This document shows positions 1,890-63,546 of a DNA stretch of 64,000 nucleotides, piece after piece; positions within the stretch are counted from its first letter, which is position 1; each line of letters starts with the position of its first letter. Made by a program: the position numbers and the translations under genes. A model generated the notes under the pieces. The model was not told the origin of the DNA and made no database searches. It saw nothing but the letters and a program-made list of their open reading frames with translations. Source of the stretch: Panicum virgatum (Eukaryota; Streptophyta; Magnoliopsida; Poales; Poaceae); assembly GCF_016808335.1 (NCBI RefSeq), contig NC_053146.1, positions 30,233,495 through 30,297,494 on the forward strand, written 5' to 3'.

Positions 1890-2033
1890 AAACGGTTAAT
1901 CTCGCGGACGGAGACTACGAATTGGTGCCCGCGGACTCTCGTGTTGATCAGGAGGTTAATTTGAACTATGCTAACTTATCTCAAGGCCTGGGCCAAGCCC
2001 CAGAGGTTTTTCTACCTGACAGTGCCCAAGAAG
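1890..2033 (+). CDS. LTR exon-like block 2, copy A0
   Basis: The block is 144 nt and has no stop in the used frame. It is preceded by an acceptor-like ATATAG and followed by AAG/GCAAGC, a good match to the GC-AG class of donor. It begins with 2 nt of a split codon and ends with 1 nt. The peptide is acidic and contains NLADGDYELVPADSRVDQEV. The sister copy at 33696-33839 has the same length and phases. I do not recognise the protein. Coding is inferred from frame conservation between copies and splice-phase agreement with 3005-3120, not from a known family. Confidence 0.5.
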
Positions 2034-3004: not shown

Positions 3005-3120
3005 GTACTAACTTCGAGGATCTGTTTGCAAGTCTTACGTGGCCGTGTACCTTGCCTCCGGGTTGGTCTGTTGAGTGGGATGGTCCTTCAGCCAGTGCTG
3101 ACCACCCTCCCACTGAGTGA
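3005..3120 (+). CDS. LTR exon-like block 3 with stop, copy A0
   Basis: The block follows a TTTTTTAG acceptor. Its first 2 nt complete the codon left open at 2033, giving Gly, and 37 sense codons follow before TGA at 3118-3120. The peptide includes FEDLFASLTWP, then LPPGWSVEWDGPS. The same peptide, with substitutions, is found at 34810-34925, 41047-41156, 48040-48149 and on the minus strand at 62318-62427. That conservation in one frame, ending at an equivalent stop, is the main argument that it was translated. I know of no named domain for it. Confidence 0.55.
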
Positions 3121-8435: not shown

Positions 8436-11422
8436 ATGGCGGATTCTGCAGCTCAAACGACAAACTCTGCAATTGACGATGCGGCAATCTGCGGCCTAAA
8501 GGTAATATTCGGCCTAATCCTTTAGTTTTCTTCAGCTTACTAAGCCTCTGAAACTTTAAATCCTGAAACCTGACGCCGTATGCATACTTCTGAATTTCTG
8601 AACTTCAGGTGTCAGACATCCTTTTGCCGCATCCTTCCAACCCAAAATCTTTCTGTCTTGGCCCACGAACCTATGAAAATCCCATAGATTTGATCTCTTG
8701 TGAAGCAAATAGGATTCCTTTTGTGAGTCAAAACATCAATCTGAACCTCTGGGCCGACTGCTTAAGAGCCTGGCCTAACCCCCCTGAAAGTTGGATTACA
8801 TGGTACAACAGAGTAGCAAAAACTCATATGCCCTTATGGCAAGATTTGAACATAGCCGATGCACTTAGCTTATCATTATCACCTCTTGACAAAGATGAAA
8901 AGCTTCTGAAAACCATCGGCTATTTTTGGTCTGATGCCCTGAACTGTTTTCTCTTTGGTCATGGACCCATGACTCCCACTCTGCTAGATGTCACCATGAT
9001 CACTGGCCTAGATATTGGATCTCCTAATCCAGCTGCCCATAAAATGGCAGAAGTTCCCTTCAAACTTTCATCCAAGGTTAACTGCACAAACTGGGGCACT
9101 TACATGAGTCAGCACATGAAAACAAAAGGTCCAGTGACTGAGAAGGAACACACAGCCTTCTTAAATCTTTGGCTAGAACACTTCATCTTCTGTGGTCCTT
9201 CTTTAGCTCCAACTAAGAACTATCTTCCCTTGGCCTATCACCTAGCCCATGGCAATCGCACCGGCCTAGGTAAACTTTTCCTTGGAGAAACCTACAGATA
9301 TCTCCATTTGATGATATCTAACTTGCTTAACCAAAAGAAACTGAGAACTGGAGGCCCTTGGTGGTTTATTAAGTTGTGAGCAGAACTATACTTTCAACAT
9401 CATATCCCAAACTTCCAAGGCCTGACCAAGAACTCTTTTCCTGATGAAAGTGGCAAACCAATCAGATGTACCAGCTATGGCCAAGCTTTATTTAGTGTTT
9501 CTGGCAGTAAACTGAATTCAGCAGATGCAGCAAATTGGTTCAGAATCTTCTACAAAGGACTAGATAATCCACTCTATTTCCCATTTACTGAATCTGAATC
9601 CTTTGAGAACCCAACTGACTTCAGATTAGATAACTTTGCCGATGATGACAGCACTCGGCATTTATACTCTTTAATGATCCAACCTGGCTTTCTTCCTGTT
9701 GGCATTAGCACTTCTAACAGAATTATCAAGCCAGGTTATGAATCTTACCAACCAGTCATAGCAGCTCGGCAATTTGGCCTAGGACAAGTCCCTCCCCACT
9801 TCCATATTCACCACTTGGTGGAGAGCAGAGCCGATCTGCCTGACGGCCTCACTAGTTCAAGATGCTATGGCATGTTTGATGATCTCCATATTCCAATACC
9901 AGCCGATCTGTCCTTCACATCCTCATCAATCGACTTCAGCACATGGTGGAGAATGTGGAAAACACATGTATTCAGGAAAGCTCTAGGTCCTCGACTGCAG
10001 CAAATTGATCCTGAATATGTAATCCCTGAGAAAGAGGTATTGAATTTATGCACCTTACTCTTTCTAGATCATCCAACCTTCCACTTGTCTAATTCTTACT
10101 CACCCTATTTGCAGCAACAAGATGGTCCAGAACCTATGACCAGCAACAAGGAGCCATTCCACTCTCTTCCAATTGCCCCTGATGTACTCTTCTGCAAAGG
10201 ATCACCGCCAATGAAGAAAGTGATAATGACTATCCAGCCAGACTTACTTCAGTCGGCTTCCAAACGAAGACAAACTTCTGCAAATGTTGCCCCCCGAGTC
10301 TTGACCAAGAAAAGGAAGATGATCACGAGGCGAGTCATCAAGAAACCTGCACCAGCTCCCCCGAGTCCATCAGAGTCCGACACCAATCAGGTAACTCATC
10401 TTTCAAAAACTCCTTTATTGCATACACATGTACTCTGGTTGACTGCAATTTTATTTTCAGGACGCAACTGAAGACATCCTTGAAACCAGTAACCCAACAC
10501 AACACGAAATCATCGCTCATGAAGTTGATACTGGAACAACTGAAACTTCAGACACTCTGACGGATATACATGGCAAACAAGCTAACACAGTCGAAGCCCT
10601 TATTGTCACCTCCAATCCAACAGGATCAGCTACACCAGAGCCGATCATCACCTCTTGTTCAGAATAGGTAACTTTCATGAGAACCAATTCAGATTCAGTC
10701 GATAGCTTTATAAATGCATCTTGCTCTAACTCCAAATATGTCCATAGGGCTTTGATATTTCAGGTTTGCTTTCCTTTGACCCAGCATCAATGGGTCTGAC
10801 TGTCCCCAGAGCAGAAACACCATCTTTGCAGCAATCGACTAACTTGGCAAATCAGCTTCAATCCATCAAGGATCTATTATCTGCTCCAATCACTGCTCTG
10901 GTTGATGATTCTAGCAAGATAAAAGAAATTCTTGGGCAAATAGAATCCCAGCTTCTAGAATTACTTCGAGTCAAACTCTGGCCAGCCGGCCATCTTCCTT
11001 TCTTTCGGGCAGAGGCGAAGGCAGCTCAATAAAGAATAGAAGCACGTCGTTCTCAAGTCTCTCTGAAAACTGACATAGCTCAAAAGTGAAAAGCTGTCAA
11101 CCAAAAGAAAGCAACTCTGGATGCTAAAGCTGATGTCTCTGAGAACACAAGACGACTCAACCTCTTGGAAAAGGAACTGGTCGAACTTGAAGAAAAGGTC
11201 CGCACTACCCAAAGACTAATCCAAGAGGAGCAGGCTTCGATCGCAAACTCTAGGCAGGAAGCCCAAGAAATGACTGAACAAATACAGGCAGAGTTTGCAG
11301 AGATAAGCACCTTGAGTCGACAGATAATATCAGGCGATGACAAGGACGACAAAGAAATCATTGCAAGAGGTGATGCTGTACGTGCGGATGCCATCCATGC
11401 CATAGAAAAATTCCTGAACTAG
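8436..11422 (+). pseudogene. Antisense plant-mobile-domain (PMD-like) protein gene with introns, in element E
   Basis: Exon 1 is 8436-8501 (22 codons from ATG). A 107-nt intron (GT at 8502, CTTCAG ending 8608) joins in phase 0 to a long exon from 8609. That exon has one in-frame TGA at 9377-9379 and otherwise stays open to about 10389. A second GT...TTTTCAG intron (about 10390-10461) leads to a Thr/Glu-rich segment. A further exon from about 10764 ends at 11420-11422 and encodes a coiled coil (LEKELVELEEKVRTTQRLIQ), with in-frame stops at 11030 and 11087. The domain at residues about 25-260 has the pattern of the plant mobile domain, including GPMTPTLLDVTMITGLDI. PMDs occur in host proteins such as MAIL1 and in transposons. 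The exact third junction is uncertain. Confidence 0.65.
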
Positions 11423-11529: not shown

Positions 11530-11762
11530 GTATTTTTACTAGCCAGCTCAGCGTGTTGGCTTCTCATTCATTTTTTTACCAGCCAACTCAACGTGTTGGC
11601 CTATCTCTTTCTTTTTACCGGCCAACTCAACGTGTTGGCCTATCTCTTTTTTTTTTACCGGCCAACTCAACGTGTTGGCCTATCTTTTTTTTTACCGGCC
11701 AACTCAACGTGTTGGCCTATCCTTTTTTTTACCGGCCAACTAAACGTGTTGGCCTATCTTAG
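11530..11762 (+). repeat. Minisatellite of about six 36-42 bp units with internal hairpin
   Basis: The unit consists of a T-run, ACCGGCCAACTCAACG, TGTTGGCC and TATC, repeated with small changes. The core GGCCAACtcaacgtGTTGGCC is a 7-bp inverted repeat around a 7-nt loop. The oldest-looking units are on the left (CCAGCTCAGCG), and the right-hand ones are nearly identical. The array sits between the end of the antisense gene and the end of integrase. Confidence 0.9.
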
Positions 11763-11791
11763 TATAGCCAGATGGATCTCATCGGCTCTTG

Positions 11792-29711: not shown

Positions 29712-29767
29712 CTAGAAGTCCTCGTACTCCTGGTAGCTCTAAGTGAACTCCCTCGCGTCGGCAAGAA
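29712..29767 (-). CDS. LTR exon-like block 3 with stop, B1
   Basis: It follows ACTACTCAG on the minus strand. After 2 nt that complete a split codon, 17 codons lead to TAG at 29712-29714, ending YQEYEDF. One codon within (at about 29739-29741) is TAG where B2 has CAG. Same length (56 nt) as in B2 and B3. Confidence 0.45.
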
Positions 29768-29827
29768 CTGAGTAGTAGTAGAGTATCCCAAAAAGAACAA
29801 GAGGAAAAAGAGTAGAGGAGGCAAGTG

Positions 29828-30795: not shown

Positions 30796-30891
30796 CTTCC
30801 TCAAACTTCTCCTGCTGCTGCTCAAACTGCTCTGAAGACGGTGGCTGCTCCGGGTACTAGTATTGATGCTCCTCCGGTAGCTCAACGTATA
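30796..30891 (-). CDS. LTR exon-like block 2, B1
   Basis: 96 nt, or 31 codons plus 2 and 1 split nucleotides. The peptide is Glu/Gln/Pro-rich: YPEQPPSSEQFEQQQEKFEE. A TAG at 30857-30859 stands where B2 has CAG. The 3' border is GAAG/GCAAGT. At the 5' border the acceptor AG of the other copies is GG, so splicing here is probably lost. A1 inserted exactly at this border. Confidence 0.45.
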
Positions 30892-31672
30892 CCCACTGTG
30901 ACACTTCAGGTGTCAGTACATTTAAATACAATCAATGTACCTTAGTTAAACTAAAAAGAAAAATTTGGGAAATTAATTCAAAGAGAAAGGGTCAAATAAA
31001 AGACAAACCATACAAAAGAAATTAAAGGAGAAAGAAAAAGGAGTGAAAAGCTACTCAAAATTTAATTCAAAAAATGTGCATAAAATTTTAGTTGGCTCAT
31101 GAGAGGTGTTTCAATTGACATGTGCTCAATTGAACTTCAGCCAAACTCAAGTCAAAAACTGAATAAAACCAAAGTCCTTTTGTGCAAATTTGCAAATGTA
31201 CAAATAGTTCAAAATGTGAGTTTCAAATGAAAATTTGCATAACACGAAAGTTATAGATCTTGAAAAGTTATGCAAAAGTGGTATTCAACATTTTTTCATT
31301 TGAGCCCTCTAAATAGGAGATATTTTTAGATTACCGAGAGGTCCCTGGAATTTTCAGAAATCGCAAAAGAACCCCTATCTCCATCTCTCTCCCGGCTGGC
31401 TCTGTTTCGCCCGCCGCCCGCCGTACGCCGCCGGTGGACTTCGTCCACCGCGCGCCCGCAGACAAATGGACCCGGGGAAAACCCCCAGCGCCACCTGGCC
31501 CGCCCCTTGGCGCCCTCCCACGCTCACACGCGTCCCAGGCCGCTCCTGAGCCGCCACGACACCCCACCATGCGTCGCGCCGACCGGCCACTCCGCCAGCC
31601 CGCCGACGAACCGTCCAGGGCCAAATCCACCGCCCCCAGGCGCTACTCACCTCACCCGGGAGCTCCTTGGCC

Positions 31673-31678
31673 TATAAA
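31673..31678 (+). promoter_or_regulatory. TATA box of A1 LTR
   Basis: TATAAA lies in a GC-rich context (CTTGGCCTATAAAGACCCCC), about 65 bp before the first ATG of the GC-rich block at 31738. The position is typical of an LTR core promoter and matches the TATA at 38932 in A2. Confidence 0.65.
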
Positions 31679-33695
31679 GACCCCCAGAACTCCACCGTCG
31701 CGCGCCTTCTCCTCCTTCCTCCTCCCGCCGCTCCGCCATGGCCGCCGAGATCCAGCTCGCGCGGACCGGCTAACCCAGCCCTACATTGGCCCATCCGACC
31801 ACCGCAGCAGCTTCGCCACCTCCAAGTTAAGCTACACGCGCGCGGAATCGAACCCAAACCTCCTCCCGACGCCGTTCCCCTTCTGCGCCGCCGCCGGCGA
31901 GCTCGGGCTCACCGCGGACCGGCTAGCCCAGAGGGAGTCCGTGCCCAACAGCTACCCCAGGCGCCTCCTCAAGCTCACGCGGTGCTCGTGCGCGCCCTGT
32001 TCCCCTACCCCAACCCTCCTTCACCTCCAGCGCCGGCGGACCGAACAACCGCCCCGCCATTGACGCCGACGAGATCGAATCCGTGCACCAAACCCTCGAA
32101 CGCCGACCAGGGTAGGTGTTCCTCGATCCCTACTCTCCCACGCGCCTCCCCGTGGTAGCCCCGGTAAGCCCTGCATCGCAGAACACCACCGGCAAGATGC
32201 CACGGCGGAGAAGGCCGGCGAAGGGCCCGGTTGTAATTTCTTTTTTTTTGTTTAAGGGTGTGTTTGCAAGATTTTCAGTGTATACCAGTGAACTTCTAAA
32301 ATGCAGAACAAATCATAGAAAAATCGTAAAAATGCAAACTCAATGGATTTGGAATCCTTGTAACAAGATCTACAAATTTTGTAAAAGTAACATCTGCAGA
32401 AACTCAACCGATTTTAATCTGGGAAAAAGAATAAGAAAACCACCTTATGCATGTTCAGGAAGTTCTACTCAGCAAATGACCTTGATTTTTGGATTTGTTA
32501 TCACTAATGGAATATTAAGATCATAGTAAAAATATGACACCCAACCAAAATAGTTATCATATTGGAACAATCAAGATTCTCTAATCTGTTGTTAGCTTTC
32601 TCGATTTAATACTGGAAAATATGCATAGGAACTTGCTCTGGAATTTTTACTGCATACATATATAACTGAAATATTGTTACTCCATAAATTTCAGATTTAT
32701 TAGAGTTCATTTGCTATATACCATGATTTATGTTTGTTTAATCAACTTAATTCTTCATATATAGTTGTTATGCTCAGAAAAATCTATATTTATTTCTAAA
32801 GTCTCTTTTTAGCTATGTGTTCCTGTCTAAAAATTTTGATCTGCAGTTACTGAGTTTTGCTTTGGTGAATAATCATGCTTAGCATCTTAGGGCTAGATTT
32901 ACTATTTTTGTTCTGAGTAATCCACACCATAACTGATCTTGATTTTTGGACATGATCTTGTCTAGAGTATGTTCTATCTATAATAAAAAGTTCATATGCA
33001 GTACTGATTAAATGCACCTTGAGGAATTTATGCTAATTCATGTTAAGTTAAAAGCATAACTAATTTATCTTGTGGTTACAAAGCTCGATAATTTTTCTGG
33101 TGTATGTTTAGCTCATGAATAGGCTCTGGTAAAAATTTGAGAACCATATCCCTAGTAAAACTTTCTGTAGATTTAATCTTTGTAAATGGCTTGCTGTTTT
33201 TGTTCTTTTTGTCACCCCTGTTGTATAAGTGTATAAAATATGGAAAAATTTCAGTGCTGAGTATATGCTATGAAGTTTCTCTCGTAAAATGTGTAGCACT
33301 AGAACCCATATTAAATGTTCTGTACAAAAAGATGAAGCAACTAGAGTAATCCACTTGCATGAATAGTTATAGTTTTTGCTTTATGGTTAGATGCTGAAAT
33401 TTATACCATGAATGCTTAAGTTGGATCTGTGTTACTTTATTTTTTCATCAATAGCTCATTAGTAGTTTTGTTGTTATGAAATAATGAAAGCATGCTATGT
33501 TCTAATGTTGGAAATGCAAACCAAACCCCCACTCATTCATGAAGAAACATAGTTAGGTTTACTACTCTATAAATGACTGCCCATGAAACGAAATGTTGAA
33601 ATCATCATTAAAGTCACTTTTTTTGAACTACAACTTTATCGTGAAGGAAAGAAATCGTTATCCATGAATAACTCATAATCTGGCATTGCATATAG

Positions 33696-33839
33696 AAGCG
33701 GTCAATCTCGCGGACGGTGACTACGAATTGATGCCCGCGGACTCTCGTGTGGATCAGGAGGTCAATTTGAACTGTACTAACTTGTCTCAAGACCTGGGCC
33801 AAGCCCCAGAGGCTTTTCTGCCTGACAGTGCCCAAGAAG
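33696..33839 (+). CDS. LTR exon-like block 2, A1
   Basis: 144 nt between an ATATAG acceptor and a GAAG/GCAAGC donor, open throughout. The peptide reads NLADGDYELMPADSRVDQEV and then an acidic stretch ending DSAQE. Compared with A0 it has about ten substitutions, no indel and no stop. Confidence 0.55.
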
Positions 33840-34764
33840 GCAAGCCCCGGAGCATAATCCCACTATTTTTCCGAATTATCATTCCGCTATCTATTTATTA
33901 ATGTATTGTAATATTTTGTTTTTCTACATTTAAGTTTTCTAGGCGTTGATCGAAAACCCTAGATGCATGATCCCTAGGAACCTATGTTTGTTACCGGATC
34001 TTTTAACAACTAGTTGCCATGCTAAATAGGTACAGTAGAAGTCGAGTGGTTTCCTGCCTCTCGCGAGCAAATAGGAATTGTACTGACTTTAATTCCTGTT
34101 GAAATGTAAGGACAACGGGCGGGGTTGTGTAGTTGTGATACCCCGCTGTTGTAGTCAAAAATGGCTAAGGTCGCGGTGTGTGGCTCATTTCGTTAAGCGT
34201 TTGAAAGTACTAGCCACATACCGAGAAATATGGTAATCGGTAAGCTTAAGTACCTGATTGGACCGGCGAGTGGAACGATCTCGCACCCTCCTGGTAGAAG
34301 TAAGGTTTATATTTTTGTCGCGACGTACGGGTGCAGAGTGGTCGGACTCTGTAGTCGGGGAGGGTGTGCCGGATCCACGGACTGGAAAGAAAGGGGAAAA
34401 GTAGCGTGGGCGGGAGCGAAGTCGATCCCCATGCGTGTGGTCTAGGTTCCCCTGACCAGGTTGAAATTCGGTTCAGAATCGTCCGCCTCTCACGGCATGA
34501 GATTGCTTAATGTTTTCGGTCACACAGAGTAACAAGTGGAACATGATGATGATACTGCTGTATGATTAAATGGTTGCTCTACCATGTTTGTGTAGAGTTA
34601 GATGCAAACTTAGAATGGTTAATCCCATTGGAATATGGCTAAATAAAATATGAAAATAAGGATCAACATTTAGTGGCGTTTTTGGCAAAACAAACCCCAC
34701 CAACCAAAAAGCCTTGCATGTCTAGTTATCGGACTATGTTATATCCGGTGACGGGTCAGTCTTG

Positions 34765-34784
34765 CTGAGTATTAGTATACTCAG
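34765..34784 (+). promoter_or_regulatory. Inverted repeat before LTR exon 3, A1
   Basis: Identical to the A0 palindrome (8-bp arms, TAGT loop). It ends 25 nt before the exon 3 acceptor. Confidence 0.6.
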
Positions 34785-34809
34785 CCTTGCTTGTGGCACT
34801 ATTTTTCAG

Positions 34810-34925
34810 GTACTAACTTTGAGGATCTGTTTGCAAGTCTTACTTGGCCGTGTACCTTGCCTCCGGGTTGGTCTGTTGAGTGGGATGGCCCTTCAGCTGG
34901 TGCTAATCACCCTCCCGCTGAGTGA
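34810..34925 (+). CDS. LTR exon-like block 3 with stop, A1
   Basis: Follows ATTTTTCAG; TGA at 34923-34925. FEDLFASLTWPCTLPPGWSV is identical to A0. Differences between A0 and A1 cluster near the C-terminus (AGANHPPAE against ASADHPPTE). Confidence 0.6.
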
Positions 34926-35293
34926 CGCATTCGTACGGGCTTTATCGATGCGTCACGTTATTTCGCTAGTTATCTTTTAATGCTTCCGCTGAACAATGAG
35001 ACTTGAATAAATTGGCTAGTTGGAACTCTGTAGTGCTTACTGCTATAAACATGGTTTGTAATAAATTTGGTTCTTTTCCGCTGCAATCACTCTGGGATGT
35101 ATGAAAAGTTCTGTGTTGTAATCTCTGGGCTCACCTTCGTGTGAGTGTTGTCTGCTGATCCTGGAATAGCGTGGCTTTTATCGAGGCTTCACTCGAGGAA
35201 CTACCGGTGAGTGCCAAATTTGGTCAGAGTTGCTTAGCAACAAAGATCAGTGCACCCGGGCCCAGTAGTTTTGGGTGGTTCCGCCACACCCAC

Positions 35294-37344
35294 GAACACA
35301 TGGCCAATAACAAGGCAACAACATAAACATACATGCAAACAAAGGCTAACACTAAGAAACAGTAGAACAATACATAAAAACAACAAAAAAAAACTAAGCT
35401 AGAACTGTGCTACGTGTTACAACAATCGCGTGGACATAAAGAACGCCTAAAACGGAGCTAGAACGCGAAAACTAGAGCTAAAACAAGGTCCAGGGGCTTT
35501 TCTGCAAGAAAAACTAAGTTTCTAGGGGTTTTCTGCAAAAACCAGGGACCTATACATAATTAAACATAATATCTGGGGTCTAACTCGCAAAAACTACTAG
35601 GCTGGATTGCGGGTTCAAAAACCAGGAAACTCAGGGGCCTAAAAGCTAAAAACAGGGCCAAACTGGAAATACTTTTGAACTGACTGGACCGCCGGTTGAT
35701 TTCCATGAAACGCAGGGGCTCTTTAGCAAAAGGGATGGCGCTGACCGTTACCTTCCCTGTTTGACCAGGGGTCGGGTTAACGCGGACCGTCCGATCTCGA
35801 TCGGGCGGCCTTGGGCGAAAGGGGAGTGCGGGCGGCGTCGCAAACGGTGGCGCGCGGCGGCGCTCTACGGCAGGGTCGCCGGAGATGGCGAAAGGGGTGC
35901 TGCGGGGCTCGAATCGCCACGGGTTCGGGTCAGAGAGGTAGCCCGCGACATGGCGAACTCAACTGGGTACATCGGGTGGGGGATTAGGGCTTCGCAGTGG
36001 CCCGCCATGGCGAGGGCGGCGAGGGCGACAGCGGAGCGACGGCGAGCACCGTTCCGGCCTCGGAAAGGGCATACGGGCCACTACAACTAGCGCATAAGGA
36101 CAAGGAAGGCCCGGGGGTGCTCACCGAGGCTTGGACACGGGCGAAGCCGAAACACAAGGTGGTTGGCATCGATGGCAAGCGGCGGCGCACGACGAAGCTC
36201 GGTGGCGAGGACGATGCAGGGGTACTTCGGGCATCTGGAACTCACGATCCGGTCCGCGCTTGCTCTGTGGAGGTGCAGTGGGGGTCAGATTGGACTACGG
36301 TCCATCGGCAGCGAGGAATCGCGGCGGCGGGTCGACTTACCCGCGGCGGCGCCCGGCACAAATCCGGCTGCTGCAGGTGCTGGGGTCGTGCGTGGAGGCC
36401 TCGGGGTCGCCCCAGGCGTCTAGGCGAGGCTGCTGCGCGGCTCTGGTGGGGCTGGGGTACGGCGGAGCGGCGTGGCCTCGGTGACACAGGGGCCTCTTCG
36501 CGGCGGAGCTGTGCGGTGGTGGTGCTGCGATGCAGTGGTGGTGGCAGCGTGGCGAGGTGAAACACAGAGGGGATCGCAGGGGCCAATTAAAGCAGGCCCG
36601 AGCATCCTGGGCGTGCGCTCTCGGGCGTGATCCCGGCGAGAATCGCGGGCGGCGATCATGGTGTATCTGCTCGCAGAGGAAGCGGATCGCGTGCAACCGC
36701 TTGAGCGATCCCGGGCTCTAGCTGCTGCTTCTAGAAGGCCGGAGCGTGCTCGGGTGGCTGGCAGGTGGGCTACGGGGTTGGGGTGGTCCACAGGACAGCG
36801 AGGTGAGCGGGGTTCTCGGCGGAGCGAAGCTGCCCAGGGAAGAAGAAGGAAAGGAGGAAGAAGGGGCGCCGACAGGTGGGCCCGGATTGTAAGGGAGAGG
36901 GCGCGCTGCGCGGCCTGTGGGCTGGCATGAGGGAGGAGGTGAGTTGGGCATGGCGCGGGAGACTGGGCCGGTGCGGGAAAGGGAACGAGTGGGAGTGGGC
37001 TGGGCCGAAGCAGGGTGAGGAAGTGGGCCGGCTGGGTTTGGGCTTGGGTCCTGTTGGGTTTTCTGCTTTTTCCTACTTCTCTGTTTTCTCTCGTCTTTTC
37101 TTTTCCAAACGCACTCAAACTATTTGAATTCAAACACCAGTTTGAATTCAAAACTTATGCACTCAACCAAAAATAAAACTATGCTCCAGCATGAATGCAC
37201 AACATGTTGACCTAAGAAAAATTTTATTTACTTGTGGAACCAAAATTAGATTAAATGCAAGGCTAAGCATAATAAACCTTAGAAAATTAAATAAAGCCAA
37301 TTAAATTTAATATTAAAAGCTGAAATTTAAATTATGGTTTTACA
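35294..37344 (-). other. Remainder of the B1 LTR, GC-rich gene-like block
   Basis: After the A1 insertion the B1 sequence continues. 35300-35760 is an AT-rich intron-like stretch. 35760-37060 is very GC-rich, with many overlapping open frames on both strands, none supported as a gene. 37080-37344 is AT-rich. The open frames of the GC-rich block reflect composition, and the block corresponds to 51290-52440 (B2) and 57980-59420 (B3). Confidence 0.6.
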
Positions 37345-39944: not shown

Positions 39945-40097
39945 AAATCACCCCGTTAGCAGACGGAATGTACTAGCTCATCCAGGAACCAGACGGAGAT
40001 ATTTCTGAAGCTCAGGCCAATGTTGTTGAACTAACTGAAGTCCTGAACTCTGATTCTGAAGAACCAAAGTCTACTGACTCTCTAAACACCATTACAG
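39945..40097 (+). CDS. LTR exon-like block 2, A2
   Basis: 153 nt between ATATAG and ACAG/GCAAGA. The phase is as in A1. It contains PLADGMY, then a TAG at 39974-39976, then an acidic stretch (EAQANVVELTEVLNSDSEEP). The same codon is TAG in A3, so either the stop is inherited in this subfamily or the block is not translated from its first codon. This is the main argument against simple coding in A2 and A3. Confidence 0.4.
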
Positions 40098-41046: not shown

Positions 41047-41156
41047 GAATGACTTTGGAAGACTCAAACACTAGCTTGACTTGGCCTAGTGTTTTACCTT
41101 CTGGCTGGTCTATGGAATGGGAACCACCTTCGACCAGCAATGACTCGGATGAATGA
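41047..41156 (+). CDS. LTR exon-like block 3 with stop, A2 5' LTR
   Basis: Follows TGTTTTCAG and ends at TGA (41154-41156). The peptide MTLEDSNTSLTWPSVLPSGW, followed by SMEWEPPS and an acidic end, keeps the family pattern while many codons differ from A1. The first 2 nt plus the 1 nt left by block 2 give Gly, as in the other copies. Confidence 0.55.
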
Positions 41157-41536: not shown

Positions 41537-41548
41537 TGGTATCAGAGC
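41537..41548 (+). promoter_or_regulatory. Primer-binding site (tRNA-iMet), A2
   Basis: TGGTATCAGAGC, the standard complement to the 3' end of initiator tRNA-Met, 2 nt after the LTR end. Confidence 0.95.
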
Positions 41549-46605: not shown

Positions 46606-47870
46606 GGTGAAGAAAAGTACAGGTGCTTTCATATGGACTACAAGGGAGTTTTATGGTTCGACAATCGCATTGTGGTTCCCAAAGACCATCAACTTAGAAG
46701 ACAAATTCTTGATGAAGTACACCTCTCCAAATTTTCTATTCATCCCGGTAGCACCAAGATGTACCAGGATCTTTGACAGAATTATTGGTGGACCAGAATG
46801 AAGAGGGAAATAGCTAAGTATGTTTCCGAATGTGATATTTGCCAGAGGATTAAAGCTAGTCATCTCAAGGTAGGGGGCACACTTCAACCCCTACCAATTC
46901 CATCTTGGAAATGGGAGGACATTAGTATGGATTTTATCATTGGCTTACCCAACACATCCCAGAAGCACGACTCAATATGGGTGATCATTGATAGATTGAC
47001 CAAGATTGCTCATTTTCTCCCAGTGCATACTTCTTACTCTGCTAAAAAGTTTGCAGAAGTCTATCTTGATCAAATAATTTGTCTCCATGGTGTACCCAAA
47101 ACGATCATATCTGATCGTGGATCACAATTTATTGCACATTTCTGGGAGCAACTACAGGCTTCTCTTGGAACTAGGTTGATTCGTAGCTCTGCTTATCATC
47201 CTCAAACTGATGGACAAACCGAAAGGGTAAACCAAATACTTGAGGATATGCTCAGAGCATGTGTCATTCAATATGACAAGAACTGGGATAAATGCCTGGC
47301 CCTAGCAGAATTTTCATATAACAACAGTTATCAGTTCAGTTTGAAGATGGCACCGTTTGAAGCGTTATATGGTCGAAGGTGTCGAACTCCATTGAGTTGG
47401 TCACAGACCGGAGAACGCAAAATTTTTGGGCCTGACTTAGTAACTAAAGTGGAGAATAAGGTGAAAGTTATTCAGGCGAATCTTAAAGCGGCTCAATCTA
47501 GACAAAAAAGCTATGCAGATAAGAGGAGGAAGCCGTTGCAATTTGAATTTGGGGATCACGTATATCTACGAGTATCTCCAACAAAAGGTGTTCAAGGATT
47601 CGGTCTAAAGGGAAAACTAGCGCCCCGCTATATTGGACCCTTTGAGATCCTTGAAATATGCGGACCAGTGGCTTACCGAATTCAACTTACTTCTCGGTTA
47701 GCAGCTGTCCATGATGTATTCCACGTCTCTCAACTTAAGAAATGCATGAAAGTCCCTGAAGAAATTATCGAGCAACAAGACCTGGAAGTAGAGCCAGATC
47801 TATCATATGTGGAGTACCCAATGAAAATCCACGATAGTAAGGAAAGAAGTACCAGAAGGGAAAAAGTTTG
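46606..47870 (+). pseudogene. Integrase with truncated chromodomain, A2
   Basis: The zinc-binding region spans a stop and frame change near 46775-46800; its second half is YVSECDICQRIKASHLKVGG. The core is open from 46798 to the end: Asp in WEDISMDFIIGLP, Asp in TIISDRGSQFIAHFWEQLQ, Glu in QTDGQTERVNQILEDML. The GPY/F-type module reads KLAPRYIGPFEILEICGPVA. The chromodomain starts at YPMKIHDSKERSTRREK and is cut after about 15 residues, where the sequence becomes LTR (47868). Chromodomains target integration to particular chromatin; this one is incomplete. Confidence 0.9.
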
Positions 47871-48527
47871 AAAGTTAAAATTTGAATTAAGGACATACTC
47901 TTTGTGGCTTTTCAGCAAAAGAAAACCCAGAACCTTTCCAAGCCTAGCATGTCTAGATATGGGGTTACTTTATACCCTTAATCGGATCAGTCTTGCTGAG
48001 CATTAGTATACTCAGTCATGTTGGTGACTCTGTTTTCAGGAATGACTTTGGAAGACTCAAACACTAGCTTGACTTGGCCAAGTGTTTTACCTTCTGGCTG
48101 GTCTATAGAATGGGAACCACCTTCGACCAGCAATGTCTCGGATGAATGATGTCATGCTTGGGCTTACCATTGCATCTACCCTACGATGTTTGTGTATAGT
48201 TGTGTTTTAATTTCCGCTGCAAAACTTCTAAAGTAAGCATAGCTTACTTTTATGTCTTTTTCCCTAAATAAATTGTAAAAAGCTAGAACTTTAATGTACT
48301 AGCTTCAAAACTTTGATGTAAATTATACCTCTTATCTATGTGATGTAAAGTCTTGTGGAATGTTTTATCTCTGACTCGCCTTCGAGCGGGATGTATACTT
48401 GTGTTATAATCGGATGTTCAGTGGTTACATCGGGATGTTACCCGACAGACCAAGGATTATACCGATTAAGGTGCGCTCAGTTGTGTAGCGTACTTGATCT
48501 GGTGTAATTCAAAGTGGTTCTGCCACA
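47868..48527 (+). repeat. Truncated 3' LTR of A2
   Basis: Equivalent to the last 661 bp of the 5' LTR (from 40874), ending TTCTGCCACA. Few substitutions separate the copies, for example CTGAGC against CTGAGT in the stem-loop. TTTGAAAGTT occurs on the integrase side and in the LTR at the join, so a short shared sequence may have guided the deletion. Confidence 0.92.
48040..48149 (+). CDS. LTR exon-like block 3, A2 3' LTR
   Basis: Same 110 nt as 41047-41156 with a few substitutions (Met to Ile in GWSIEW, Asp to Val near the end), still open to TGA at 48147-48149. Confidence 0.5.
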
Positions 48528-49590: not shown

Positions 49591-49646
49591 CTAGAAGTCC
49601 TCGTAGTCCTGGAAGCGCTGAGCGAACTCCCTCGCGTCGGCAGGAA
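49591..49646 (-). CDS. LTR exon-like block 3 with stop, B2
   Basis: Follows GCTGCTCAG on the minus strand. The peptide is PADAREFAQRFQDYEDF, then TAG at 49591-49593. The terminal TAG is at the same place in B1, B2, B3 and F. Confidence 0.5.
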
Positions 49647-50669: not shown

Positions 50670-50762
50670 CTTCCTCGTACTGCTCCTGCTGCTGCTCAAA
50701 CTGGTCAGAAGACGGCTGCTCCGGGTACTGGTACTGGGGCTCCTCAGATGGATCAACGTCTA
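50670..50762 (-). CDS. LTR exon-like block 2, B2
   Basis: 93 nt between CGTGAG and GAAG/GCAAGT. The peptide begins DVDPSEEPQYQYPEQP and continues Gln/Glu-rich to EQYEE, without a stop. The split codon is completed by block 3 (49646) as Val. Acidic and Gln-rich like the other copies, though the sequence is not alignable to family A beyond the shared end. Confidence 0.5.
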
Positions 50763-54489: not shown

Positions 54490-54536
54490 CTAGAAATCCT
54501 GGATGTCCTCTGGGAAGTCCTCAAACTGATCTTGGT
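54490..54536 (-). CDS. LTR exon-like block 3 with stop, F
   Basis: Follows ACTGCTCAG on the minus strand. Peptide QDQFEDFPEDIQDF, then TAG at 54490-54492. Acidic, ending in DF-stop as in family B; the split codon becomes Asp. Confidence 0.45.
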
Positions 54537-55473: not shown

Positions 55474-55545
55474 CTTCCTTGTTCACTTGATGCTGCTCAA
55501 AGTCTTCAAAATCTTGATCTTGAAGGTTCTCAAACGGCTCTTCAT
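55474..55545 (-). CDS. LTR exon-like block 2, F
   Basis: 72 nt between GTTTAG and GAAG/GCAAGT. Peptide EEPFENLQDQDFEDFEQHQV, then NKE. Shorter than in B or A, but with the same start and end phases. Confidence 0.45.
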
Positions 55546-59898: not shown

Positions 59899-59985
59899 TA
59901 GACGTTGATCCTTCGGAGGAGTACCAGTACCCGGAGTAGCCACCGTCTTCACAGCAGTTTGAGCAGCAGGAGAACTTTGAGGAAG
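59899..59985 (+). CDS. LTR exon-like block 2, B3
   Basis: Peptide DVDPSEEYQYPE, then TAG at 59937-59939 (CAG in B1 and B2), then PPSSQQFEQQENFEE. It ends GAAG/GTAAGT: the only copy with a canonical GT donor, where the others have GC. CGCGAG/TAG at the 5' border allows two acceptors three bases apart, both in frame. Confidence 0.5.
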
Positions 59986-60997: not shown

Positions 60998-61053
60998 TTC
61001 CCGGCGACGCAGAGGAGTTCACTCGGAGCTACCAGGAGTACGAGGACTTCTAG
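60998..61053 (+). CDS. LTR exon-like block 3 with stop, B3
   Basis: Follows TGCTGCTCAG. Peptide PGDAEEFTRSYQEYEDF, then TAG at 61051-61053. After the stop, similarity to B1 and B2 continues at the DNA level, so the stop position alone does not prove coding. Confidence 0.5.
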
Positions 61054-62317: not shown

Positions 62318-62427
62318 TCACTCGTTGGGGTCATTTCCGGCCGGAGACGGATCCCACTCTACGGACCAGCCATAGGGCAAAGAGCAGGGCCAAGTCAGAC
62401 TTGCGGTCTGGTCCTCAAAACTCATAC
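62318..62427 (-). CDS. LTR exon-like block 3 with stop, A3
   Basis: Follows TGTTTCAG on the minus strand, TGA at 62318-62320. Peptide MSFEDQTASLTWPCSLPYGW, then SVEWDPSPAG and NDPNE. It is intermediate between A1 and A2: SLTWPC and GWSVEWD are as in A1, and the length is as in A2. The split codon is Gly. Confidence 0.6.
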
Positions 62428-63393: not shown

Positions 63394-63546
63394 CTTCGCG
63401 GTAGTCACTAGCTAGATCAGCCTTGGGCTCTTCGGGACTTTGGTCCGAGTCTTCAGTCAGTGTAGCGGCGTTCACCTGGGCTTCTTGATCACCTCCTTCG
63501 GACTCCGGGATCAGCTAGTACGTCCCGTCAGCTAGAACAGTCGTAT
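63394..63546 (-). CDS. LTR exon-like block 2, A3
   Basis: 153 nt between ATATAG and GAAG/GCAAGC, the same length as in A2. It contains LADGTY, TAG at the same codon as in A2, then LIPESEGGDQEAQVNAATLT and an acidic end (DYRE). The remainder is free of stops. Confidence 0.45.

Follow-up and report, generated by a model that had tools for sequence, protein, structure and literature searches.

Long terminal repeats of Tekay-like chromoviruses in Panicum virgatum: two exon-like blocks that probably encode a spliced tail of Pol

CRM group A elements are chromoviruses in which the integrase C-terminus, with its CR motif, is encoded in the 3' long terminal repeat (LTR) (PMC3059260). The Tekay (Del) chromoviruses have a chromodomain of the CHD type and a primer site of the initiator methionine tRNA (iMet) type; neither LTR exons nor a spliced Pol tail is mentioned in the accessible part of their description (PMC6317226). 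Ogre has an intron between GAG-PROT and the reverse transcriptase, and partial splicing sets which polyprotein is made (same source). Spliced RNA occurs beside unspliced RNA in BARE1, with separate pools for translation and replication (PMC3735527), and in the sunflower elements Tyran and Varan (PMC7730604). A review of December 2025 describes plant LTR retrotransposons as generally without introns, with notable exceptions including Ogre and EVADE (PMC12786077). Here we analyse a 64,000-nucleotide stretch of Panicum virgatum DNA, called the window, in which LTR retrotransposons carry two exon-like blocks within the LTR. The mouse mammary tumour virus sag and human immunodeficiency virus nef genes also overlap the 3' LTR; each encodes a separate protein that has a start codon of its own.

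The window holds nested LTR retrotransposons. The original prediction, made from the sequence of the window, had described two blocks with both junctions in phase 1 in seven LTR copies (A0, A1, A2, A3, B2, B3 and F), and recomputation confirmed this arrangement in each of them. Block 1 follows an AG, begins with 2 nt of a split codon and leaves 1 nt before a GC or GT. Block 2 opens with 2 nt that complete the codon and continues to a stop. The length of block 1 is 144 nt in A0 and A1, 153 in A2 and A3, 90 in B2, 84 in B3 and 72 in F. Both blocks are open in four of the seven copies (A0, A1, B2 and F). The in-frame TAG common to A2 and A3, which had been placed in block 2, actually lies in block 1, and block 1 of B3 has a TAG as well. 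At the A3 position the 29 other copies of the A3 family encode Glu (28) or Lys (1), so the TAG is private to the A3 copy of the window.

Further copies were taken from the 1.13-Gb plant genome (1,129,937,113 bases in 627 contigs). The A1 LTR probe found 2,351 candidate places, of which 40 were scored; identity was at least 94% in all 40, and many were paired about 12 kb apart. The family-A set of 30 copies consists of A0, A1 and 28 genomic loci, 11 of these loci covering the LTR partly. The A3-family set, also of 30, consists of the window A3 and the 29 other copies. The 5' and 3' LTRs of three paired A elements were compared, and the A LTR is about 4.4 kb long by a composite estimate. Its alignment begins at 31384, about 450 nt into the LTR. 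The LTR front was read in seven pol 3' ends, where it was positioned by the polypurine tract and TGTGACAC, not by comparison of pairs; it lies about 775 nt upstream of the upstream TATA box where that box was found.

The proposed splice signals of block 1 are conserved in these sets. The ATAG/A sequence before it (slash, proposed splice point) is retained in all 30 A and all 30 A3-family copies. The block 1 donor (GAAG/GCAAGC, at 33840 in A1) has GC in 29 of the 30 A copies, with GT in one, and in all 30 A3-family copies; the same site has GT in B3 and GC in B1, B2 and F.

The blocks were compared with the rest of the LTR for signs of selection. Among the 30 A copies the ratio of nonsynonymous to synonymous differences (pN/pS) in the coding frame was 0.34 for block 1 and 0.19 for block 2, with codon-bootstrap ranges of 0.14-0.86 and 0.09-0.35, respectively. 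The other frames of the blocks gave 0.87-1.31, and the other LTR stretches and frames tested gave 0.45-1.39, with U5 reaching 1.83. Internal stops were found in 0/30 copies of block 1 and 1/30 of block 2, and net frame-breaking length changes likewise in 0/30 and 1/30. In 18 other 141-nt segments of the LTR, frame-breaking changes occurred in 1-23 of 30 copies where coverage was full, and in 15/19, 2/19, 20/29 and 6/29 in the four segments with fewer copies. Low pN/pS and few stops are confined to the predicted frame, and therefore the blocks are more than chance. Block 2 is firmly and block 1 weakly constrained; in family A both look protein-coding in the predicted frame. The original prediction had named a dN/dS near 1 and frequent frame-breaking indels, together with a lack of spliced reads, as grounds for giving it up, and the ratios and frames of the A copies are of the opposite kind. 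In the A3 family pN/pS was 0.40 for block 1 (30 copies, stops in 5) and 0.42 for block 2 (27 copies, stops in 5), the latter after L049, L057 and L060, in which block 2 is missing, had been dropped; the block 2 value with such rows included had been 0.72 (29 rows). Between A and A3 the uncorrected values were pN 0.152 and pS 0.889 for block 2, and pN 0.363 and pS 0.637 for block 1.

A protein search with the 85-residue joined A1 tail gave 318 matches, and the best 120 were listed and sorted by the motifs they contain. The block 1/block 2 junction is crossed exactly, and without the intron, in two of these, P0001 and P0113. P0001 (jgi, contig of 1,645 nt) matches 99% of the query at 94% identity; P0113, also from jgi and with a longest contig of 2,017 nt, is nearer to A2/A3. 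The remaining 118 contain one block only, and in 99 of these intron sequence is translated, as GK(P)R or similar. Thus block 1 is joined to block 2 in RNA, as read from two proteins that presumably derive from transcripts. Their starts (LHLE in P0001, MCIASHID in P0113) include the codons immediately 5' of block 1, and the simplest source for them is an element transcript, read from its 5' end, that begins close to the TATA-like box at 33565-33576, a candidate for the start of R just 5' of block 1. An apparent intron loss in L014, where roughly 92 nt are deleted, was rejected; it is one base off and sits at a GGT repeat.

The first exon is apparently outside the LTR. An in-frame stop stands 10 codons 5' of block 1 in 30/30 A copies (TGA in A1). 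In the alignment from 31384, no ATG frame shared by at least 8 copies leads in phase to a donor-like site 5' of block 1, and over the same region no in-LTR ATG in frame with block 1, as a stand-alone LTR gene would have, was found. The three ATG-donor pairs that were found in the alignment are all within intron 2. Because of the upstream stop, the lack of an ATG frame and a TGA before the B2 acceptor, block 1 must be entered by splicing or from a non-conserved non-AUG start. Of the LTR-encoded spliced acidic protein originally proposed, the spliced acidic coding exons and their constrained phases stand; a stand-alone LTR gene or leader is probably wrong on the evidence of the stop and the missing ATG frame.

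The 3' end of pol carries a candidate splice donor. In the seven A elements whose pol 3' end was read, the chromodomain ends in ..WETEDYLNRHYPGFLSSTS and is followed in 7/7 by CTCAG/GTATA, 70-71 nt upstream of the LTR. This site replaced a first guess at the donor, CCAG/GTTTTC. Relative to the local chromodomain frame it is in phase 1 in six of the seven, one base immediately upstream being lost in L078. Farther upstream, L075 carries an in-frame TGA, and L076 is frameshifted. One A3-family element, damaged by a frameshift and stops, has CTAG/GTACC in phase 1, with the block 1 acceptor about 0.96 kb downstream; the same intron would be about 2.9 kb in family A (composite). Since the LTR is only 70 nt away, the acceptor for the pol donor is to be sought in the LTR, or in host DNA beyond it.

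The donor is conserved far beyond these elements. A chromodomain anchor occurs at 1,536 genome sites, and the anchor followed by 45 nt and GGT at 1,436, with 0 for a reversed control. In all of the approximately 100 rows listed the base before GGT is A, by eye, and the codons to which it belongs vary (CCA, CAA, GGA, TCA, AAA, CTA, GCA). A third base that is constant despite a varied codon indicates an AG/GT splice donor, since a motif conserved for its protein would hold the amino acid constant and not the third base. A Pol protein search gave 5,059 matches, and the motif FLxxxxG[IT] recurs among the best 120, which were listed; 114 of these were anchored at the donor and 6 dropped. The residue at the donor is Gly in 94, Ser in 12, Cys in 1, Arg in 1 and another in 6, so that 108/114 have a residue that NGT can encode, and in 109/114 it is followed by one of four residues with codons beginning in A (Ile, Thr, Asn or Met). 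Past the donor the 120 proteins fall into three reading frames (31, 23 and 11 of 65 classifiable; 55 not classifiable). Among the A pol ends, seven in number, pN/pS comes to about 0.29 over the 123 codons before the donor and 0.56 over the 30 codons after it. Nucleotide-level constraint acts on the pol donor. The exon 1 left unassigned by the original prediction is best explained as pol, ending in this very strongly conserved phase-1 donor.

The host lineage is probably the Tekay (Del) chromoviruses, judging from the domain and primer-site sequences. The chromodomain profile PF00385 matched the relatives P0176 (E 2.2e-6, 27.9 bits, above the cut-off of 25.1) and P0208 (5e-5, 23.6 bits, below it), and the A-element pol ends have the same chromodomain sequence type. 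An iMet-type primer site, TGGTATCAGAGC, is present at 41537; after the 5' LTR of three A elements the site reads TGGCATCAGAGC in two and TAGCATCAGAGC in one. Both features expected of a Tekay-like element, an integrase C-terminal chromodomain and an iMet-type primer binding site, were thus found. A CRM-type Pol running uninterrupted into the LTR with a CR motif was not found: the chromodomain is of the CHD type and the frame scatters after the donor.

The two blocks are most probably the last two pol exons of Tekay-like chromoviruses, lying in the 3' LTR and reached by splicing from the pol end. The pol frame would run through integrase and chromodomain to the phase-1 AG/GT donor 70-71 nt before the LTR. 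Intron 1, which takes in the polypurine tract and U3, would be removed and pol joined to block 1, the G that ends the pol exon in the copies read forming with AA, AT or AC a codon for Glu or Asp in A, A2, A3, B2, B3 and F. With intron 2 removed, block 2 would close the protein with an acidic tail, predicted to range from about 39 residues (F) to 87 (A2, A3). The predicted A1 tail has 86 residues, 16 acidic and 1 basic; the P0113-like tail has 84 (19 acidic, 3 basic) and the B2 tail 48 (15 acidic, 2 basic). Peptides across TSEAVNLADGDYELVPADSR are predicted for the tailed Pol. A spliced RNA would not be a complete genome, because removal of intron 1 would take the polypurine tract and U3. The genome would be the unspliced RNA, in which both of these and the LTR intron remain, and the spliced RNA would be the mRNA for the tailed Pol; the hairpins of intron 2 could mark the unspliced form for packaging. 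The tail would probably modulate chromodomain targeting or integrase. We infer the join of pol to block 1, the function of the tail and the RNA switch from these features. That grass Tekay-like chromoviruses have an LTR-exon Pol tail, with the same splicing parting coding from genome RNA and the LTR serving as repeat, promoter, intron and exon, appears probable.

Several observations weigh against this interpretation. Constraint on block 1 is weak, as its bootstrap range indicates, and stops are found in both blocks of the A3 family. P0001 and P0113 retain the codons 5' of block 1, and therefore the block 1 acceptor was unused in them; that their contigs come from RNA is also something we infer. 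No protein joining pol to block 1 was present in the 120 listed of the 5,059 Pol matches. No intronless genomic copy of either join was found among the 40 scored of 3,429 and the 40 scored of 2,240 candidates; copying only from unspliced RNA predicts none. Pol 3' ends were read only in the A and A3 families, and the spliced product was sought with the A1 tail.

The codons retained in P0001 and P0113 could belong to a separate small acidic protein expressed from the 5' LTR, its transcript starting just 5' of block 1 at the TATA-like box and losing the intron, and its translation starting at a non-AUG codon at most 10 codons before block 1. These two proteins do join the sequence just 5' of block 1 to spliced block 2, and the box is found in A and A3. 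A start codon is not conserved, however (CTG/TTG in A1, none in A3, TGA before the B2 acceptor). The conservation of the pol donor would be left unexplained, and its matching phase with block 1 would be a coincidence, which makes such a protein improbable. It is still less probable that the product is only a spliced untranslated leader, the coding signal being a by-product of RNA constraint. The conserved hairpins agree with this, as does the conservation of the intron core and U5 at the DNA level, but low pN/pS, few stops and frame keeping are found together only in the coding frame of the blocks.

The search for a coding first exon within the LTR led to a GC-rich region of the A LTR that follows a TATA box near 31673 and would use 32112 or 32164 as its donor; in this region TATAAAGA and GGGTAGGT/CGGTAAGC are conserved. 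This candidate was rejected and is scarcely credible: no ATG frame found in at least 8 copies leads in phase to 32112 or 32164, its two stop-free frames have pN/pS of 0.64 and 0.76, and the stretch is lacking in the one A3-family LTR front read. As a protein query joined to the blocks it gave 60 matches, none over more than 55% of the query. The region itself (31671-32170, plus strand) is a GC-rich leader behind the TATAAAGA box with a short ATG frame in strong context, and the exact form MAAEIQLARTG followed by a stop is found in about 11 of 18 copies printed.

The proposed Pol tail resembles CRM group A in that the C-terminal part of Pol comes from the 3' LTR in both. In CRM the polyprotein region itself runs into the LTR, and neither "splic-" nor "intron" occurs in the accessible text of PMC3059260, whereas in the A elements the whole chromodomain lies ahead of the LTR, and splicing across the polypurine tract and U3 would be needed to add the tail. 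Partial splicing would be shared with Ogre, with the introns at the pol end and in the LTR instead. The spliced forms described for BARE1, Tyran and Varan, in the parts of those texts available, give Gag or truncated proteins and no LTR-encoded Pol tail. The Cer1 CERV of Caenorhabditis elegans (PMC10309623, in part), a Ty3/gypsy element, also has a multi-exon spliced product, whereas here the exons are in the LTR. The literature search, whose coverage mostly left out subscription journals, returned no description of LTR exons of Pol, the accessible portions of PMC7264820, PMC6317226, PMC12786077, PMC3059260, PMC7730604, PMC10309623 and PMC3735527 included. No earlier report of LTR exons combined with a spliced Pol tail was found in this coverage; parts are known from CRM, Ogre, EVADE and BARE1. 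If the interpretation is true, an abundant group of grass elements uses splicing to draw a portion of its integrase from the LTR, placing a new protein segment beside the targeting chromodomain. Annotation that stops Pol at the first stop past the chromodomain would truncate the protein. One DNA stretch would be both repeat and protein-coding sequence, and the use of one RNA as both mRNA and genome would become testable.

Table 1. Coordinates of the blocks and associated features in the window.
Feature	Position	Strand	Remarks
TATA-like box CTCTATAAATGA	33565..33576	+	read from sequence; also in A3-family copies
Proposed 3' splice site of intron 1, CATATAG/AA	33689..33697	+	ATAG/A conservation
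A1 block 1, proposed penultimate Pol exon	33696..33839	+	144 nt; GC donor
A1 intron 2 (GC-AG)	33840..34809	+	junction crossed by P0001, P0113; conserved RNA hairpins
A1 block 2, proposed last Pol exon	34810..34925	+	ends TGA
A0 block 1	1890..2033	+	
A0 block 2	3005..3120	+	
A2 block 1	39945..40097	+	in-frame TAG
A2 block 2	41047..41156	+	
Block 2 in 3' LTR remnant of A2 element	48040..48149	+	Pol fused by deletion to mid-LTR near 47867
A3 block 1	63394..63546	-	private TAG
A3 block 2	62318..62427	-	
B2 block 1	50670..50759	-	open; in-frame TGA just 5' of acceptor
B2 block 2	49591..49646	-	
B3 block 1	59902..59985	+	in-frame TAG
B3 block 2	60998..61053	+	
B1 block 1	~30797-30886	-	acceptor AG apparently lost
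B1 block 2	29715..29768	-	damaged; in-frame TAG
F block 1	55474..55545	-	72 nt
F block 2	54490..54536	-	

The tail showed no known domain above chance in Pfam and PDB searches. Pfam had no match for P0001 and one weak match (E 0.18) for P0113; the PDB sequence search with the tail gave two matches, with E of 0.44 and 0.74, taken as chance. AlphaFold prediction of P0113 with P0001 gave no usable fold (mean predicted local distance difference test score, pLDDT, 52.9). A search of viral contigs gave no match, and an Rfam search of 33500-35400 gave none up to E 1.

A hairpin of the type TGAGTA-loop-TACTCA stands shortly 5' of the block 2 acceptor in A0, A1, A2, A3, B1, B2 and B3, and by eye in F. 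In A1 it lies at 34764-34785 (plus strand), and the 9 bp of its stem hardly vary among 14 copies from A, A2 and A3, with variants in B and F. Intron 2 has further hairpins within 34085-34245 (plus strand), at 34118-34147, with three two-sided changes, and at 34178-34219. The test of hairpin conservation used a crude column-shuffle control and few two-sided changes; divergence in the intron core is about as low as in the exons. The hairpins within 34085-34245 are a possible packaging or dimer signal.

In the A2 element the chromodomain and the front of the 3' LTR are lost at 47600-47900 (plus strand), where Pol is joined to the middle of the LTR intron. Outside the LTR elements studied, an open frame at 8594-9379 (plus strand) has a plant mobile domain (PF10536, E 1.7e-17). 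At 11533-11764 (plus strand) a 37-nt unit that includes CCGGCCAACTCAACGTGTTGGCCTATC forms a short tandem array.
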